A stretch of 64,000 nucleotides of DNA, taken from contig JAJOJJ010000036.1 of assembly GCA_021208685.1 (NCBI GenBank), positions 62,001 through 126,000 of the forward strand. The letters run 5' to 3'. Shown piece by piece: positions 15,317 to 55,836 of the stretch. Position numbers and translations under genes: made by a program. The notes under the pieces are model-generated. The model saw only the letters and a program-made list of their open reading frames with translations. It did not search any database and had not been told where the DNA came from. Positions within the stretch are counted from its first letter, which is position 1. Every line of letters begins with the position of its first letter. The DNA is from Saccharospirillaceae bacterium (GTDB lineage Bacteria > Pseudomonadota > Gammaproteobacteria > Pseudomonadales > Oceanobacteraceae).

Positions 15317-15712
15317 CTATTCAGAAATACGTCGGGTATGAGTAAGTAAAGACAATTCGTGATGCTTTTGCCGGATTTTCACAACAATACGATCAGAATA
15401 AATGGCGATAACCTCAGCGCCATCAACCTGATCACCGGTACGCACAAGCTGATTATTAATCACCGCACGATTACCGCTGCTGCGGATCAGAATTTGCTGA
15501 ACCACGATGGGCACTTGCGGCGCGGCAATAGGGTCTGGGGAGGCGTGCAACCAGGGCGGCGGCTGGGTCGGGTCAGCGGCAAACACCACCGCGGCGCTGT
15601 GCAACAGTAAGCCAGACAGCAACACCAGCGGGCTGGTCAAGGTGCGCACCGGCGCAGAGTACGTGACAGACCGGCGCGATCTGACGCAGATCCCAACGAC
15701 ATCATCAGCCAC
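15317..15712 (-). CDS. mshK: MSHA biogenesis protein MshK
   Basis: Small periplasmic protein (131 aa from the GTG at 15712, which overlaps the mshJ end). A hydrophobic signal (TSPLVLLSGLLLHSAAVVFA) lies near residues 25-45 and precedes DPTQPP, a motif usual just after the signal in MshK/PilP-like proteins. The body (VQQILIRSSGNRAVINNQLV and GDQVDGAEVIAI) fits the short SctI/PilP-like fold that docks to the secretin. A second GTG at 15649 would give a shorter, more normal signal peptide and may be the true start. Confidence 0.78.
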   Translation of the reverse strand: MADDVVGICVRSRRSVTYSAPVRTLTSPLVLLSGLLLHSAAVVFAADPTQPPPWLHASPDPIAAPQVPIVVQQILIRSSGNRAVINNQLVRTGDQVDGAEVIAIYSDRIVVKIRQKHHELSLLTHTRRISE

Positions 15713-48810: not shown

Positions 48811-48987
48811 ATGTACGATTATCGCCTTGGATTGGCGCTGCTGGTGGGCATTTATCTGTTCTCCCCCATCATGATGGACTGGTGGCTGGATGACCGCGGC
48901 GCCTGGTACAAACCTTTTGCCGTCTGGCTGTTATTAATCGGCTTTTACATCTGGCTGAACCACAAACGGGGTGATGATGAGCTTTAG
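48811..48987 (+). CDS. Small membrane protein upstream of cbrA (CbrX-like)
   Basis: 58 aa protein with two hydrophobic helices (LGLALLVGIYLFSPIMMDWW and WYKPFAVWLLLIGFYIWL). Its 3' end overlaps the cbrA start region (GTGATGATGAGC), so translation of cbrA is probably coupled to it. In Pseudomonas a small ORF at this place, between gluQ and cbrA, is called cbrX. A GTG two codons upstream (48805) is an alternative start. Confidence 0.75.
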   Translation: MYDYRLGLALLVGIYLFSPIMMDWWLDDRGAWYKPFAVWLLLIGFYIWLNHKRGDDEL

Positions 48988-51907
48988 TCTGGGTCAGCTG
49001 GGGCTGATCGTTTTAGGCTACCTCGCTGCTTTATTTACCACGGCCTATTCTGTTGAACGCGGCTGGGTGCCCCGTCACTGGGTGCGTCATCCACTGGTGT
49101 ACATTTTCTCGCTGGGCGTGTACGCCAGCGCCTGGGCCTTTTATGGCTCGGTCGGCATGGCTAACCAGTACGGCTACGGCTTCCTCGCCTATTACCTTGG
49201 CATCTCCGGCGCTTTTGTCATGTCGCCGATTCTGCTGCGCCCGATTCTGCACATCGCCCGGATTTATCAGCTCAGCTCACTGGCCGATTTGCTCGCCTTC
49301 CGTTACCGCTCTCGGCTGGCCGGTATTCTGGTGTCTGTGTTTACGCTGGCGGTGGTGATTCCGATGCTGACCCTGCAAATCAGCGCCATCGCCGATACCC
49401 TGCATTTGCTCAACAGCGAATGGCCGGCAACCACACTGGCATTCGGCTTCTGTGTCACCATGATGATCTTTGCCGTACTCTTTGGTGCGCGCCACGTATC
49501 CCCACGGGAAAAGCACGAAGGGCTGGTCTTTGCCCTGGCGTTTGAATCACTGCTCAAGCTCACCGCCATTCTGGTACTGGCCGGGGTGGCGTTATTTGGC
49601 ATCTTTGATCAGGTCGGTGGGCTGGAACAGTGGCTGATTGATAATCAGGATCGCCTGTCCAATCAGCAGATTACCCTGCAGGAAGGCCCATGGCGCACAC
49701 TGTTGCTGGTGTTTTTTGCCGCCGCCATCGTCATGCCACACATGTTTCATGTGACCTTTACCGAAAACCTTAACAGCGACGCCCTGAAACCGGCCAGCTG
49801 GGGATTCCCGCTGTTTCTGCTGGCCATGAGCATGGCTGTGCCGCCGATTCTGTGGGCCGGAATTTACCTCAACGTACAGACCCCGGCGGAATACTTTGCC
49901 ATAGGCATTGGCCTGAAACTGGAATCGCCGTTTCTCGTCATTCTGACCTTTGTCGGCGGTCTGGCAGCAGCCTCCGGCATCATGATTGTGATTACCCTGG
50001 CCACTGCAGCCATGTTCCTCAATCATCTGGTACTGCCCTTTCATAAACCAAGCCCGCGTCATGATTTTTACCGCTGGCTGCTGTGGATGCGGCGCTCGCT
50101 GATCGCCGGCATCCTGCTGCTGGCTTATGGCTTCTATCGTTCAGTCGGGGCCGATCTCGATCTGAACCGCCTTGGTATTCTGGCGTTTGTCGCCGCACTG
50201 CAATTTTTACCCGGCGTACTGGGTTTGCTGTACTGGCCCAAATCCAACCGCAAAGGATTTTTATCCGGCCTGATCGCCGGCATTCTGATTTGGATCTACG
50301 GCATGCTGCTGCCATTCTCCGAGCTGGCGCTGGGCTGGCATGTGCCTCTGCCACTGGCGGCGGTGGATGAAAGCAACTGGCATCTGGCGGCACTGTCCGC
50401 CTTCGCCATCAACCTGCTGCTATTTGTACTGGTCAGCCTCAGCAGCAAGCAGAAAGCCTCGGAAATGTCAGCCGCCGAAGCCTGCTCCATCGATACCGTT
50501 TCACGCCCCAGCCGCCGCCCGCTGATCGCCGGTAACTCCAACGATGTCATTGTCTCGCTGAGCAAACCACTGGGCCGCTATGTCGCCGAACGTGAAGTCT
50601 ATCAGGCCCTGACCGACCTCGACCTGCCCTCATACGAAGACCGGCCTTACGCACTGCGCCGCCTGCGTGCACGACTGGAAGCCAACCTGTCTGGCCTGAT
50701 GGGGCCAACCGTGGCGCACGATATTGTCAGTCGCTATCTGCCGTTTCAGGAGAATGCAGAGCTCAGCGAAGACATCTACCAGATTGAACAGCGACTGGAA
50801 GGTTTCCACGACCGTCTGAGCGGATTGGCCGGCGAACTGGATAACCTGCGGCGTTATCACCGCCAGACACTTGAGCGTCTGCCCATGGGGGTATGCTCGC
50901 TGGCCGACGACGGTGAGATCCTGATGTGGAATCAGGCCATGACCGAACTGACGCAGATTGATGCTGCTCAGGTGACCGGTTCACACCTCAGCCGCCTGCC
51001 TGCACCGTGGAATACCCTACTGCAGGATTTTGTCACCAACGAACCCATGCATGAACACAAAAAGCGCGTCGATATTGCTGCCCGTCCGCGCTGGTACAGC
51101 CTGCACAAATCCGTCATCAAACCCAGTGGTGGCCAGCCCGGCGGCATTGTCGTACTGATGGAAGATCAGACCGAAACCCAATTGCTGGAAGACGAACTGA
51201 TGCACAGCGAACGACTGGCCTCCATTGGCCGTCTGGCGGCAGGGGTCGCCCACGAAATCGGCAACCCGATTACCGGTATCGACTGTCTCGCACAGACCAT
51301 CCGCTACGAAACCGATAACCCCGAACTGCTGGAAATGGCCAACCAGATTCAGGAACAGACCAAACGCGTTTCACGCATTGTGCAATCACTGATGAATTTC
51401 GCCCACGCCGGCCATCACTCGACCGAACATGAGCCGGTCAGCCTTGCCCATGTGATTGATGAAGCCATGCAACTGCTGCGCTTAAGTAAACGCAGCCAGG
51501 ACATTGCCTTTATTAATGAATGTGCACCGGATGTCATGGTACTCGGCGATGATCAGCGGCTGGTGCAGGTGTTTGTCAATCTGCTCAGCAATGCCCGCGA
51601 TGCCAGCGAGCCCGGACAGAACATCCGCGTCACCGCCGACACGGATGAACACCAGGTGGTATTACGCATTATCGACCAGGGACATGGGATTCCGGCCGAC
51701 AAGGTCGACCGTATTTTTGAACCCTTTTTCACCACCAAAGACGTCGGCAAAGGCACCGGACTGGGACTGTCACTGGTGTACTCCATCATCGAAGAACACT
51801 ACGGCCACATCGCCATTGAAAGTCCGGTCGCGGACGGTCGTGGCACTTGTGTTAAAGTCAGCCTGCCACGCTATCATCATATTGAAGAATCGGAACCCGT
51901 TGCATGA
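48977..51907 (+). CDS. cbrA: Sensor histidine kinase CbrA with SSS-transporter-like domain
   Basis: Membrane sensor kinase of carbon/nitrogen balance, about 976 aa. The N-terminal half (about 1-490) is a sodium-solute-symporter-like domain with about 13 helices. It is followed by a linker, a PAS domain (about 630-720, GVCSLADDGEILMWNQAMTEL), a DHp domain with the phospho-His in AAGVAHEIGNPITGI and an HATPase domain (NLLSNARDAS, DQGHGIP, FFTTKDVGKGTGLGLSLVYS). The fusion is the mark of CbrA. Starts at 48971 (GTG) or 48974 are also possible; 48977 has the best spacing to GGGG. The end overlaps cbrB by 4 bp (ATGA-type). Confidence 0.95.
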   Translation: MSFSLGQLGLIVLGYLAALFTTAYSVERGWVPRHWVRHPLVYIFSLGVYASAWAFYGSVGMANQYGYGFLAYYLGISGAFVMSPILLRPILHIARIYQLSSLADLLAFRYRSRLAGILVSVFTLAVVIPMLTLQISAIADTLHLLNSEWPATTLAFGFCVTMMIFAVLFGARHVSPREKHEGLVFALAFESLLKLTAILVLAGVALFGIFDQVGGLEQWLIDNQDRLSNQQITLQEGPWRTLLLVFFAAAIVMPHMFHVTFTENLNSDALKPASWGFPLFLLAMSMAVPPILWAGIYLNVQTPAEYFAIGIGLKLESPFLVILTFVGGLAAASGIMIVITLATAAMFLNHLVLPFHKPSPRHDFYRWLLWMRRSLIAGILLLAYGFYRSVGADLDLNRLGILAFVAALQFLPGVLGLLYWPKSNRKGFLSGLIAGILIWIYGMLLPFSELALGWHVPLPLAAVDESNWHLAALSAFAINLLLFVLVSLSSKQKASEMSAAEACSIDTVSRPSRRPLIAGNSNDVIVSLSKPLGRYVAEREVYQALTDLDLPSYEDRPYALRRLRARLEANLSGLMGPTVAHDIVSRYLPFQENAELSEDIYQIEQRLEGFHDRLSGLAGELDNLRRYHRQTLERLPMGVCSLADDGEILMWNQAMTELTQIDAAQVTGSHLSRLPAPWNTLLQDFVTNEPMHEHKKRVDIAARPRWYSLHKSVIKPSGGQPGGIVVLMEDQTETQLLEDELMHSERLASIGRLAAGVAHEIGNPITGIDCLAQTIRYETDNPELLEMANQIQEQTKRVSRIVQSLMNFAHAGHHSTEHEPVSLAHVIDEAMQLLRLSKRSQDIAFINECAPDVMVLGDDQRLVQVFVNLLSNARDASEPGQNIRVTADTDEHQVVLRIIDQGHGIPADKVDRIFEPFFTTKDVGKGTGLGLSLVYSIIEEHYGHIAIESPVADGRGTCVKVSLPRYHHIEESEPVA

Positions 51908-53301: not shown

Positions 53302-53345
53302 ACACCCGGTCGCCGTCACGACGGCCATACAATCGGCATCACAAA

Positions 53346-53453
53346 GTGTAACCTCAGGGTTACACACCCTCAAAAAATCAGTCATTTACCGCCACCACTG
53401 GTAACACTTTAGTGGAACACCATTCGGGCCATAAACCCGACAACTCCGTAACA
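53346..53453 (+). promoter_or_regulatory. Upstream activator sites for the first sRNA promoter (CbrB-type)
   Basis: A perfect 8+8 palindrome GTGTAACC-TCAG-GGTTACAC (53346-53365), the motif GTAACACTTTAGT with GAA after one or two bases (53401-53417) and another GTAACA (53448-53453). They lie about 40-145 bp upstream of the -24 element, where an NtrC-family activator would bind. The GTAACACTTTAGT motif is repeated at the second promoter. Confidence 0.65.
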
Positions 53454-53490
53454 CACTGATTCAAAAGGATTTTAATTGCATTCAGCAAGT

Positions 53491-53506
53491 TGGCACGGCG
53501 TTCGCT
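53491..53506 (+). promoter_or_regulatory. Sigma-54 promoter 1 (TGGCACG-N4-TCGCT)
   Basis: TGGCACG at 53491-53497 and GC at 53504-53505 give the required GG-N10-GC spacing. The match to TGGCAC-N5-TTGC has one mismatch in the -12 part (TCGC). The start of transcription is expected near 53517. Confidence 0.78.
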
Positions 53507-53516
53507 TTATAGTTAA

Positions 53517-53690
53517 CAAACCAATAAAAAATGCGCCTCAAACAATAAAAATAAAACCTGAGCGCGACAGGCCAGACAATAAAAATAAAACCGGCCACTG
53601 AGTTAACAATAATAATAACAAGCCCCAACTCACTGAAAGACGATTGCTTTGCCCGCGACGCAGCCGGCAAAGCAATCATCTCTCTTATCT
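53517..53690 (+). ncRNA. CrcZ-like sRNA, copy 1 (Hfq/Crc-sequestering)
   Basis: About 170 nt transcript with no ORF. It holds four A-rich motifs of the AAnAAnAA type bound by Hfq/Crc: 53515-53531, 53540-53556, 53576-53590 and 53605-53621. The last three sit in hairpin loops closed by GCGC(C)TCA/TGAGCGC, GGCC/GGCC and TGAGTT/AACTCA. A perfect 12 bp stem GATTGCTTTGCC/GGCAAAGCAATC (53642-53677) probably ends it, though only a weak T-run follows. The position between cbrB and pcnB is that of crcZ in Pseudomonas. The ends are inferred. Confidence 0.78.
53642..53677 (+). terminator. Probable terminator of CrcZ-like sRNA copy 1
   Basis: GATTGCTTTGCC (53642-53653) and GGCAAAGCAATC (53666-53677) form a perfect 12 bp stem with a 12-base loop; the tail ATCTCTCTTATCT is weak in T, so some read-through is likely. 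Confidence 0.6.
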
Positions 53691-53879
53691 GCAAGACCTC
53701 AGCATAAGCACCCCCCTCAGAAACATCCTTTTTCGGACACTCCGAACCAAGCCTGACGATACCTGCCAATCCGAAGCGCAGTCCGCTCAGCCGTGCCGTC
53801 ACCAAGACATTGCAAAGCCATTCTTTTTCATTACTCCAAAAGCGTCATTCATCCTCGGGGGCAGCATCCGGTCAATCAT

Positions 53880-53962
53880 GGTTACAGACTGTTACCCAGA
53901 AACATCGTTTGTTACCTCAGGCCTCGCACCCAGTAACACTTTAGTCGAATCCCCAGGTAACA
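53880..53962 (+). promoter_or_regulatory. Upstream activator sites for the second sRNA promoter (CbrB-type)
   Basis: GGTTACA-GAC-TGTTACC (53880-53896), TGTTACC (53910-53916), GTAACACTTTAGT (53933-53945, identical over 13 bases to the copy at promoter 1) and GGTAACA (53956-53962). The shared motif starts 82 bp upstream of the -24 GG, against 91 bp at promoter 1. The rest of the stretch between the two sRNA units (about 53690-53880) shows nothing I can name. Confidence 0.65.
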
Positions 53963-54013
53963 AATGCCCAAAGAAAAACATAAGTTACTGATAATTAAAG
54001 ATTTTTTTAAATC

Positions 54014-54029
54014 TGGCATGGCGAATGCT
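54014..54029 (+). promoter_or_regulatory. Sigma-54 promoter 2 (TGGCATG-N5-TGCT)
   Basis: TGGCATG at 54014-54020 and GC at 54027-54028 give GG-N10-GC. The surrounding bases (CTTTATA after the -12) resemble promoter 1. Transcription is expected to start near 54040. Confidence 0.8.
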
Positions 54030-54039
54030 TTATACATAG

Positions 54040-54313
54040 CAGATCACTGAGACGAACAATAAAAATAAAAAATGTTCCCAGTGCAAAACCGGTGACTCAT
54101 AAAAATAACAAAGCACCGGGCAAAGCGGTCTTCGATAACAACAACAATAAAAGACCGGTGAGATGAACACGCTGTTTTGAATGCACAGCTCTTTGCTGTG
54201 AAGAATAAGAAAAATAAAGGGCAGGAACCTGTCCATTCAAAACAGTCGGTTCGCCAGGTTGAAAATAACAATAATAAAAGAGAAGACTGACAAAGCCGCT
54301 GATGCGGCTTTTT
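54040..54313 (+). ncRNA. CrcZ-like sRNA, copy 2 (Hfq/Crc-sequestering)
   Basis: About 270 nt, no ORF. Five A-rich AAnAAnAA motifs: 54056-54072, 54099-54112, 54135-54152, 54203-54218 and 54262-54279. Each lies in or beside a hairpin: ACTG..GAACA/TGTTC..CAGT, CCGGTG/CACCGG (54089/54114), CGGTCTT/AAGACCG (54126/54151), a 12 bp outer stem CTGTTTTGAATG/CATTCAAAACAG (54172/54234) with inner CACAGC/GCTGTG, and CAGTC/GACTG (54243/54285). A strong terminator ends it. Together with copy 1 it forms a tandem pair, like the two CrcZ-family RNAs known in some Pseudomonas but here side by side. Confidence 0.82.
54292..54313 (+). terminator. Intrinsic terminator of CrcZ-like sRNA copy 2
   Basis: AAAGCCGC (54292-54299), loop TGAT, GCGGCTTT (54304-54311) and a T-run to 54313. 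Confidence 0.9.
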
Positions 54314-54366
54314 GTTTATCTGCTCGCCGGAAGCACCCACTTCGTGGCCGGGCAGGCGGACGAGGC

Positions 54367-54386
54367 TATTCAGAGGTTCCTTAAAT
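54367..54386. repeat. Short dispersed repeat, second copy
   Basis: TATTCAGAGG-T-TCCTTAAAT matches the reverse complement of 8733-8752 at 19 of 20 bases. The copy here lies just before pcnB and is not in a full hairpin. Confidence 0.5.
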
Positions 54387-54390
54387 TCGG

Positions 54391-55836
54391 GTGAACCGTT
54401 ACACTCGCCTGCTTCTTTGCAAAACTAAGACTTCTCAATCCGTGAAACGGCCAACCAATTTGATCAAATCAGTCATCCGCCTGTTCGGCAAAAAGAAACC
54501 ACGTACCGATGTGCAACTGACCATAGTGCCGCGCGAGAAGCACAGCATCAGTCGCAGCAATATCAGCGAAAATGCCCTTAAAGTGCTGTATCGCCTGGAT
54601 AAGGCCGGACATCAGGCATTACTGGTTGGTGGTGGCGTGCGTGATACCCTGCTTGGCCTTAACCCGAAAGATTTTGATGTCGCCACTGACGCCACGCCCG
54701 AGCAAGTGAATCAGCTGTTCCGCAATTCGCGTCTGATCGGCCGCCGTTTCAAACTGGTGCACGTCGTGTTTGGCCGTGATGTCATCGAAGTGGCAACGTT
54801 TCGAGCCCCTCCCACCGAAGAACACTCCAGTAAGATTGCCGCCAAAGGCGATCAGGGCATGATTCTGCGGGATAACGTTTACGGCAACAAAGATGAAGAC
54901 GCCGTCCGCCGTGACTTCACCATCAACGCGCTTTATTACAACATTGCCGACTACAGCGTGCATGCCTATGCGGGTGGCTGGGATGATTTACAGAACCGCC
55001 GCCTGCGCCTGATTGGTGACCCGGAAACCCGGTACCGCGAAGATCCGGTTCGCATGCTGCGTGCCATCCGTTTTGCTGCCAAACTGGATTTCAGTATTGA
55101 GGCGCATACCGCCGAACCCATCCCGGTGATGGCACCGCTGCTCACCCAGATTCCGGCAGCACGCCTGTTCGAGGAAATACTGAAACTCTTTCTGCACGGC
55201 AAAGCGCTGGATACCCTGCGGTTGCTGCGCGAATACCAGCTGTTTAGCCCGCTGTTTCCGGCGACAGAACAATGTCTGCGCGATGATCCGCAGGCACTGA
55301 TCATGGCGGAAAACACCATGCGCAATACCGATGAACGCATCCGGGCGGGTAAATCGGTAACACCCTACTTCTTCCTCGCTGCCCTGCTGTGGCCACCACT
55401 GGTGCGTATCCAGAAAGAATTCGAAGCCAAAGGCATGCCGCCGCACCCGGCACTGCAGAAGGCGGCTGACCGCGTGCTGGCTCAACAGATTCAGAGCACC
55501 GCCATTCCCAAGCGTTTCTCCATCCCTATGCGTGAAATCTGGGAGATGCAGTTGCGCCTGGCCCGTACACAAAGCCGTAAAGCTGAAGATCTGCTGACTC
55601 ATCCGCGTTTCCGCGCGGCCTACGATTTCGTGCTGCTGCGTGAACAGTCCGGTGAGAATCTGCATGGTATTGGTGGTTTCTGGACGCGCCTGCAACAGGA
55701 ACATCCGGACCTTGTACAAAGCCGTCCACCCCGCGATTTTGAGCACAGCAGCGAGACTGAGGATCAGGGCGAATTCAAAAAGCGCCGTCGGCGCGCACCG
55801 CGTAACCGCAGCCGCCGCCCGCCTCAGGCTCACTGA
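54391..55836 (+). CDS. pcnB: Poly(A) polymerase I
   Basis: Adds 3' poly(A) tails that promote RNA decay (481 aa). The nucleotidyltransferase core has LLVGGGVRDTLLGLNPKDFDVATDATPEQV with the catalytic Asp pair, FRNSRLIGRRFKLVHVVFG, VIEVATFR and RRDFTINALYYN. The RNA-binding part includes GDPETRYREDPVRMLRAIRFAAKL. The C-terminus is very basic (KKRRRRAPRNRSRRPPQAH). The GTG at 54391 is chosen as it keeps the whole N-terminus; a GTG at 54442 is possible. Its neighbour folK follows after 18 bp. Confidence 0.95.
   Translation: MNRYTRLLLCKTKTSQSVKRPTNLIKSVIRLFGKKKPRTDVQLTIVPREKHSISRSNISENALKVLYRLDKAGHQALLVGGGVRDTLLGLNPKDFDVATDATPEQVNQLFRNSRLIGRRFKLVHVVFGRDVIEVATFRAPPTEEHSSKIAAKGDQGMILRDNVYGNKDEDAVRRDFTINALYYNIADYSVHAYAGGWDDLQNRRLRLIGDPETRYREDPVRMLRAIRFAAKLDFSIEAHTAEPIPVMAPLLTQIPAARLFEEILKLFLHGKALDTLRLLREYQLFSPLFPATEQCLRDDPQALIMAENTMRNTDERIRAGKSVTPYFFLAALLWPPLVRIQKEFEAKGMPPHPALQKAADRVLAQQIQSTAIPKRFSIPMREIWEMQLRLARTQSRKAEDLLTHPRFRAAYDFVLLREQSGENLHGIGGFWTRLQQEHPDLVQSRPPRDFEHSSETEDQGEFKKRRRRAPRNRSRRPPQAH

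Follow-up and report, generated by a model that had tools for sequence, protein, structure and literature searches.

The CrcZ RNA (Rfam RF01675) of Pseudomonas and Azotobacter is encoded between cbrB and pcnB and contains several A-rich stretches. In Pseudomonas aeruginosa it is 407 nucleotides (nt) long with six such stretches; its first 151 nt (CrcZ151) contain three and gave three Hfq-shifted bands in vitro (PMC4063720). On its distal face, the Hfq hexamer offers six pockets for A-R-N triplets (PMC5815094, PMC4063720). In P. putida, CbrB acts on a sigma-54 promoter through three subsites spaced 20-25 base pairs (bp) apart, one of them forward (TGTTAC) and two reverse (GTAACA), with help from integration host factor (IHF) (PMC6296734). 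CrcY and CrcX are further copies in P. putida, Azotobacter vinelandii and P. syringae (PMC8871633, PMC6292655). In its available text, a 2022 review calls the CbrAB-CrcZ system unique to Pseudomonadaceae, with no orthologous systems described, and the cbrA-cbrB-crcZ order is described there only for Pseudomonas and Azotobacter (PMC8871633). Here we analyze two predicted RNA units, unit 1 and unit 2, that lie between cbrB and pcnB in a Thalassolituus-like marine bacterium, a relative of known oil degraders and not a pseudomonad. The window, meaning the whole stretch of DNA analyzed, is 64,000 nt long and comes from a genome of 4.0 Mb.

The anatomy, conservation, structure and distribution of the units and the presence of the protein partners, all read from the sequences, make it likely that the locus encodes two independent CrcZ-type small RNAs (sRNAs), a full and a shortened one, both putative decoys for Hfq (with Crc). 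The original prediction of a tandem, CbrB/RpoN-driven locus of CrcZ type outside Pseudomonas is supported by enriched CbrB-type and IHF-type sites, separate conservation of the two predicted transcripts, covarying hairpins, orthologues of cbrAB, and the presence of rpoN, hfq and crc in the host genome. Besides position and A-rich stretches, the locus shares with CrcZ a sigma-54 promoter preceded by CbrB subsites near -124, -104 and -81. In unit 2, a central stem with a TTTTGR element also resembles that of CrcZ. It differs in having at least two units, in the length of unit 1 (~170 nt, CrcZ ~400), in the second subsite of unit 2, which is forward where that of CrcZ is reverse, and in scoring under the Rfam cut-off. 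CrcY and CrcX are likewise extra copies, second and third ones that depend on CbrB and sigma-54 and show partial redundancy, but they are dispersed in the genome, whereas the units here are adjacent and searches of the host genome with our models R1 and R2 found none elsewhere. RsmY, RsmZ and CsrB are decoys, too; they repeat the motif that their protein binds from one hairpin loop to the next, frequently exist as several copies, and bind RsmA/CsrA via GGA. The units resemble them in design, with A-A-N repeats for Hfq in place of the GGA motifs.

Anatomy and conservation of the two units

We used a detector that calls a unit where a sigma-54-like promoter is followed shortly downstream by at least two AAnAAnAA clusters. 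In 438.7 kb of the host genome, both strands, it matched units 1 and 2 only, among 207 promoter-like matches scoring at least 9/12. The region 53302-54390 contains 10 AAnAAnAA clusters, whereas 500 shuffled versions average 2.5 and never exceed 9; its AAnAAnAAnAA positions number 17, compared with an average of 0.5 and at most 6 in the shuffles. Because one cluster (53971) precedes promoter 2, the predicted transcripts contain four clusters (unit 1) and five (unit 2), compared with six A-rich stretches in P. aeruginosa CrcZ. The original prediction had proposed these same motif counts, two GG-N10-GC promoters with start points at 53517 and 54040, TGTTAC/GTAACA-type sites and a terminator-like hairpin for each unit. 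All of these were recovered, and both start points fit the promoter positions (Table 1). A terminator-like hairpin was called in 50/53 units of the family, with a poor T-tract in some.

Perfect TGTTAC/GTAACA subsites number two ahead of unit 1 and four ahead of unit 2. In the 170 bases upstream of the 53 units in 22 family genomes, we found 164 perfect subsites (9.3 in shuffles) and 36 IHF-type sites (0.9 in shuffles), the latter defined by letters that we take to be the IHF consensus; some units are without one. The unit 2 subsites are located at -124, -104, -81 and -57 relative to the promoter, and those of crcZ in P. aeruginosa PA7 at -124 and -104, plus a one-mismatch site at -82. Perfect subsites of unit 1 are found only at -90 and -43. 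The reverse subsite and the IHF-type site of unit 1 are ~10 bp farther upstream than those of unit 2 (-90 versus -81, -42 versus -33), about one helical turn, a shift that would keep them on the same face of the helix. By the presence and enrichment of these sites, both upstream regions appear to be of the CrcZ type.

The predicted fold of unit 1 opens with a short 5' stretch rich in A, continues with three hairpins whose loops are A-rich, and ends in a terminator-like stem. The predicted folds of both units beat all 200 shuffles (z -6.1 for unit 1, -6.3 for unit 2). In a plain MAFFT alignment of nine genus members, 94.9% of cells pair (92.5% when shuffled) and two-sided changes occur in 5/29 pairs, none of them in helix 2, part of which is misaligned in this alignment. 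Model R1 found 19 short-type units with E < 5e-8, 17 of them first units and two (G010 and L074) second units. In their alignment, which was fitted to the structure and so favours pairing, changes on both sides occur in 28/29 pairs, and 92.7% of cells pair, compared with 70.1% in shuffles and at most 39.5% with the partner slid. The first-loop columns AUAAAAAUAA rank among the most constant of unit 1. In eight genus members, the 32 in-phase A-A-N runs of unit 1 comprise five triplets in 16 cases, six in 6, four in 2 and three in 8, the last being the 5' stretch. Each hairpin loop would therefore show roughly one Hfq hexamer's worth of A-A-N triplets. With three A-rich loops, unit 1 looks like a natural counterpart of CrcZ151; the latter is a laboratory fragment, whereas unit 1 would be a natural gene with its own predicted promoter and terminator-like stem. 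In several genus members the 5' end of unit 1 (AAAGCAAT) repeats the 3' arm of its own terminator stem and could pair with the 5' arm; unit 1 of the window (53517-53677) has ACCAAT at this place.

Unit 2 contains five A-rich stretches and a long central stem that starts with CUGUUUUGAAUG. Its 38 in-phase A-A-N runs in the eight genus members have five triplets in 17 cases, six in 15, four in 5 and seven in 1. Across 22 sequences, 87.7% of the cells of the central stem pair, a value reached by 0/500 shuffles, and 8/17 pairs show two-sided changes, a count reached by 15/500 shuffles. The TTTTGR-type element is found in 42/43 units of the Pseudomonas group, 16/16 Marinobacter-like, 3/3 Halomonas (placed further 3') and 1/1 Hahella units, in the last unit of 13/21 family genomes and in 4/14 others. 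With a looser pattern, the last unit is positive in 18/21 family genomes; G009 and G018 have the element in an earlier unit, and G011 is without any.

The two RNAs are conserved separately. When eight genus members are aligned, their identity to the window sequence is 0.88 for promoter 1 and 0.85 for the unit 1 RNA, falls to 0.33 between the units, rises to 0.79 for promoter 2 and 0.78 for the unit 2 RNA, and is 0.44 past the unit 2 terminator. In one family genome a rearrangement has split the locus (L186, G004:C1:382000-399000): a distance of 11.6 kb separates cbrB and unit 1 from unit 2, which adjoins pcnB and has its own promoter and subsites. The original prediction described a side-by-side duplication. 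The tandem arrangement of two units holds, each conserved by itself, but a simple recent duplication is rejected on the grounds that unit 1 and unit 2 are unlike in length and design and show separate conservation. Among the units examined, only units 3 and 4 of the four-unit locus in G009 (L046) look like recent duplicates, with shared internal spacing at an offset of 537. These data support a pair that predates the genus, with unit 1 as a different, shortened type. Our guess is that unit 1 arose from a longer CrcZ through loss of inner and 3' parts.

Table 1. Features of the cbrAB-pcnB locus (window coordinates)
Feature	Position	Strand	Remarks
cbrA, sensor kinase, 978 amino acids (aa)	48971..51907	+	PAS, HisKA, HATPase domains
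cbrB, NtrC-type response regulator, 465 aa	51904..53301	+	receiver and sigma-54 interaction domains
Unit 1 CbrB-type subsites	53358..53453	+	GGTTAC 53358 (one mismatch), GTAACA 53401, GTAACA 53448
Unit 1 IHF-type site	53449..53461	+	TAACACACTGATT
Sigma-54-like promoter 1	53491..53506	+	GG-N10-GC, 11/12 scored positions
Unit 1 RNA, ~170 nt	53517..53687	+	fold, covariation, conservation; ends predicted
Unit 1 fourth A-rich stretch, 5'	53523-53530	+	
Unit 1 A-rich loop stretches, three	53541-53554, 53578-53588, 53605-53621	+	
Unit 1 terminator-like hairpin	53642..53677	+	weak U-tract; followed by T-poor ATCTCTCTTA
Unit 2 CbrB-type subsites	53890..53962	+	TGTTAC 53890, TGTTAC 53910, GTAACA 53933, GTAACA 53957
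Unit 2 IHF-type site	53981..53993	+	TAAGTTACTGATA
Sigma-54-like promoter 2	54014..54029	+	GG-N10-GC, 10/12 scored positions
Unit 2 RNA, CrcZ-type, ~280 nt	54040..54318	+	fold, conservation; ends predicted
Unit 2 A-rich stretches, five	54055, 54101, 54137, 54201, 54264	+	
Unit 2 long central stem	54161..54256	+	A-rich stretch within; R2 87.7 bits (model built including the window sequence)
Unit 2 terminator hairpin	54293..54310	+	followed by TTTGTTTATC
pcnB, poly(A) polymerase	54391..55836	+	downstream neighbour; NCBIfam TIGR01942, 517 bits, above cut-off

Relation to CrcZ and alternative explanations

Several observations weigh against a CrcZ-type assignment. Both units score far under the curated cut-off of the Rfam CrcZ covariance model (95 bits). 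The Rfam comparison suggested in the original prediction did give weak matches, 35.2 bits for unit 2 and 26.3 bits for unit 1, but neither reached the cut-off. In a scan of 14 loci at this cut-off, 2/2 Pseudomonas loci passed and 12/12 non-Pseudomonas loci missed. When the whole genome was searched, unit 1 alone stood out (E 6.2e-5; the next three matches had E 0.29-0.77) and unit 2 was absent from the matches listed. Weak CrcZ matches with E up to 1 also occur in 9/14 unrelated control genomes, and our case therefore does not rest on Rfam scores. The central-stem model R2 misses 7 Pseudomonas-group, 10 Marinobacter-like and 1 Hahella loci among the 25 named loci searched. The U-tract of the unit 1 terminator is poor, and the hairpin search called no terminator in 3/53 family units. 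In the host, Hfq has F instead of Y at residue 25, and the excess of A-rich sites at gene starts is modest in the sample examined; both points are taken up below.

R2 matches 21/22 family genomes, only at this locus (in G004 at the displaced unit), and 0/13 relatives from other families. Among the named loci it matches 3/3 Halomonas (E 0.008-0.011) and, weakly, L081 (E 0.6); it also misses two Alcanivorax loci and L148. With respect to homology of the central stem with that of CrcZ, unit 2 has both the TTTTGR element and the long stem, unit 1 is without the stem, and the reach of R2 is confined to Halomonas. Because R2 misses Pseudomonas, the argument for homology with Pseudomonas CrcZ is built on position, promoter design and motif rather than on a model score. 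Because the curated cut-off is not reached, we do not file these RNAs as RF01675; the pair probably acts like CrcZ and is its counterpart at this locus, though not a filed member. An sX5 Rfam match at 49281 is far under its cut-off, lies within cbrA and was rejected. In Pseudomonas, the stretch that separates cbrB from the crcZ promoter region contains Rfam P36 (L092:4676-4736, L105:4724-4784); we saw no P36 counterpart in the window.

Other explanations of the locus can be weighed against the same data. Unit 1 might be a decaying duplicate without a role of its own, with only unit 2 working as CrcZ, a reading that its fewer perfect CbrB subsites (two, compared with four) and weaker U-tract would fit. 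Decay is improbable, since conservation of unit 1 within the genus exceeds that of unit 2 and its pairs are kept by compensatory change. The weak U-tract would also fit a single transcript, in which promoter 1 or read-through from cbrB spans unit 1 into unit 2 and produces one long decoy, perhaps processed; processing of cbrB-crcZ read-through yields CrcZ* in P. putida and A. vinelandii (PMC6292655). We regard a single transcript as improbable to the same degree: unit 2 is preceded by a promoter, subsites and an IHF-type site of its own, the intervening DNA is unconserved, and in G004 unit 2 is displaced by kilobases. Some read-through may occur alongside separate transcripts.

It is still less likely that the units act chiefly as ordinary base-pairing sRNAs for which Hfq binding is just supportive. 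RNAs that are structured and have A-rich stretches of the Hfq type might well base-pair with mRNAs, but here the A-rich loops are the most constant parts and the stems change by compensation. Coding DNA or a chance A-rich sequence is hardly credible. Open frames of 98-115 aa overlap the units, yet no reading frame is open throughout unit 1 or unit 2 across the eight genus members, and on this ground protein coding was rejected; the A-rich runs exceed all shuffles, and the stems covary.

Two CrcZ-type decoys, the interpretation we prefer, suggest the following mechanism. On poor carbon sources, CbrA would activate CbrB, which would bind the TGTTAC/GTAACA subsites and, with IHF bending the DNA, switch on both sigma-54 promoters, assuming that both units are transcribed and that CbrB, IHF and RpoN bind as the sites predict. 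The A-A-N-repeat stretches of each RNA would fit the six distal-face pockets of Hfq. Titrated in this way, Hfq/Crc would leave mRNAs with A-rich sites at their ribosome-binding sites, allowing their translation. Unit 2, with its long central stem, would be the CrcZ proper of the locus, and unit 1 a shortened paralogue consisting of three hairpins, each loop with about one hexamer's triplets, and a terminator stem. The benefit of keeping 2-4 units across the family would probably be a higher decoy dose and a set of promoters of differing strength. Unit 1 is a minimal, strongly structured candidate Hfq decoy suited to structural work.

Distribution of the units

All 22 family genomes have 2-4 units: two units lie between cbrB and pcnB in 13 genomes and far from each other in G004, while 6 genomes have three units and 2 genomes four. 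These arrays are natural copy-number variants. Among the named loci, of which we took the best 80 of 563, the detector called one unit in 63, none in 6 and two or more in 11. Three of the 11 multi-unit loci (L069, L070, L072) seem to be the same records as G008, G002 and G007, and in L088 (Pseudomonas) the second call looks spurious. The six loci without a unit comprise three that have no pcnB in the locus and three of Alcanivorax (L085, L087, L138), in which the detector found no unit between cbrB and pcnB. Two-unit arrays with CbrB-type subsites occur beyond the family in G026, G032, L081 (Oceanicoccus) and L148 (HTCC2143). Some relatives from other families have a single unit or no unit, or have A-rich clusters for which no promoter was called (G027, G028, G034), and CbrB was matched in 35/35 genomes bearing 14 family labels. 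R1 also matched away from cbrB in G027 and G028. Five R1 stretches were inspected (L187-L190 and L192, the last from G034), and two passed the detector at three or more clusters. These two, L188 (G028:C154) and L189 (G027:C2), are CrcZ-like sigma-54 units off the cbrB locus that resemble the dispersed CrcY/CrcX.

The cbrB-RNA-pcnB arrangement is present in records named Thalassolituus, Oceanobacter, Bermanella, Marinobacter, Halomonas and Hahella. The description "unique to Pseudomonadaceae" is too narrow; given this range of records, the global circuit of carbon control goes back further and extends more widely than has been described, and the host would have a control layer previously ascribed to Pseudomonas and its closest kin. 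The open-access PubMed Central literature gave no CrcZ report for Oceanospirillales or Marinobacter and, in the text portions available, CrcZ together with Halomonas only as an incidental mention; the available text of PMC6292655 does not contain the word "tandem". As far as these literature searches reach, the kind of RNA is known, and what is new is its array, its compact form and its host range.

A broader picture, which we offer tentatively and consider possible at best, is that CrcZ-based control has a long history in the wider Pseudomonas-Oceanospirillales group, with a decoy array at cbrB that grows and shrinks. In this family a natural minimal decoy would have emerged by trimming CrcZ to its 5' part, with one loop per Hfq hexamer, and in bacteria that use alkanes the array would set the point at which Hfq/Crc repression of alkane oxidation (alkB) is released. 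If so, copy number and promoter strength would form an evolvable dial for carbon preference.

Protein partners and candidate targets

The host has full-length orthologues of CbrA and CbrB in the cbrA-cbrB order. CbrA is 59% identical to the P. aeruginosa PA7 protein over 976 aligned columns, and CbrB is 64% identical to its PA7 counterpart over the full length and 98% identical to that of a same-genus relative (G008). The N-terminal half of CbrA gave no Pfam match, and that of the PA7 protein likewise no significant one. The Crc protein, which NCBIfam calls only exodeoxyribonuclease III, is nearer to Crc than to other exonuclease III relatives: it scores 261 bits to Crc of 4jg3 and 254 bits to 2myi (deposited as exodeoxyribonuclease III), the next group scoring 176. 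The gene sits between two frames that we take, from their sequences, to be rph-like and pyrE-like. At residue 25 of Hfq, where P. aeruginosa has a tyrosine that is key to the distal face, all 22 family genomes as well as G026 and G027 have F, and the other 6 of the 30 loci compared (L229-L258) have Y. In P. aeruginosa, the Y25D substitution abolishes A-rich binding (PMC5815094). F25 keeps the ring of this aromatic position.

Candidate targets were sought as A-rich sites near gene starts. The pattern AAbAAbAA (b = not A) occurs near 14/392 called starts in the sample; 14 other arrangements gave a mean of 5.4 and a maximum of 12, and one of the eight strongest cases is unit 1 miscalled as a gene. 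The excess is suggestive only and, because it is modest, we claim no regulon. One lead is alkB (L199, G000:C36:39503-40627, minus strand; NYxEHYG motif), which has ACAATAACAACAA shortly ahead of its start. It was picked post hoc, as the one case with a site before the start among six inspected leaders of FA_desaturase-family genes. AAnAAnAA occurs within 45 bases of the start in 12/15 alkB orthologues (L199-L213; at least 58% identity, query included), 6/15 more distant alkB relatives and 20/395 genes in general; because the sequences are related, we claim no probability for its retention. Crc controls alkS of P. putida. Because an A-rich site precedes alkB, alkane use is a candidate target here, which raises the question whether marine oil degraders control alkane use through Hfq/Crc. 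Many alkB leaders also have a conserved ATTGTC-GACAAT-like palindrome further upstream of the AAnAAnAA site. In L173, a 162-aa frame of unknown family with its start near 15488 (plus strand) is preceded by AAAAAATAACAAAAACAAAAGGGG, which resembles the Hfq site of amiE.

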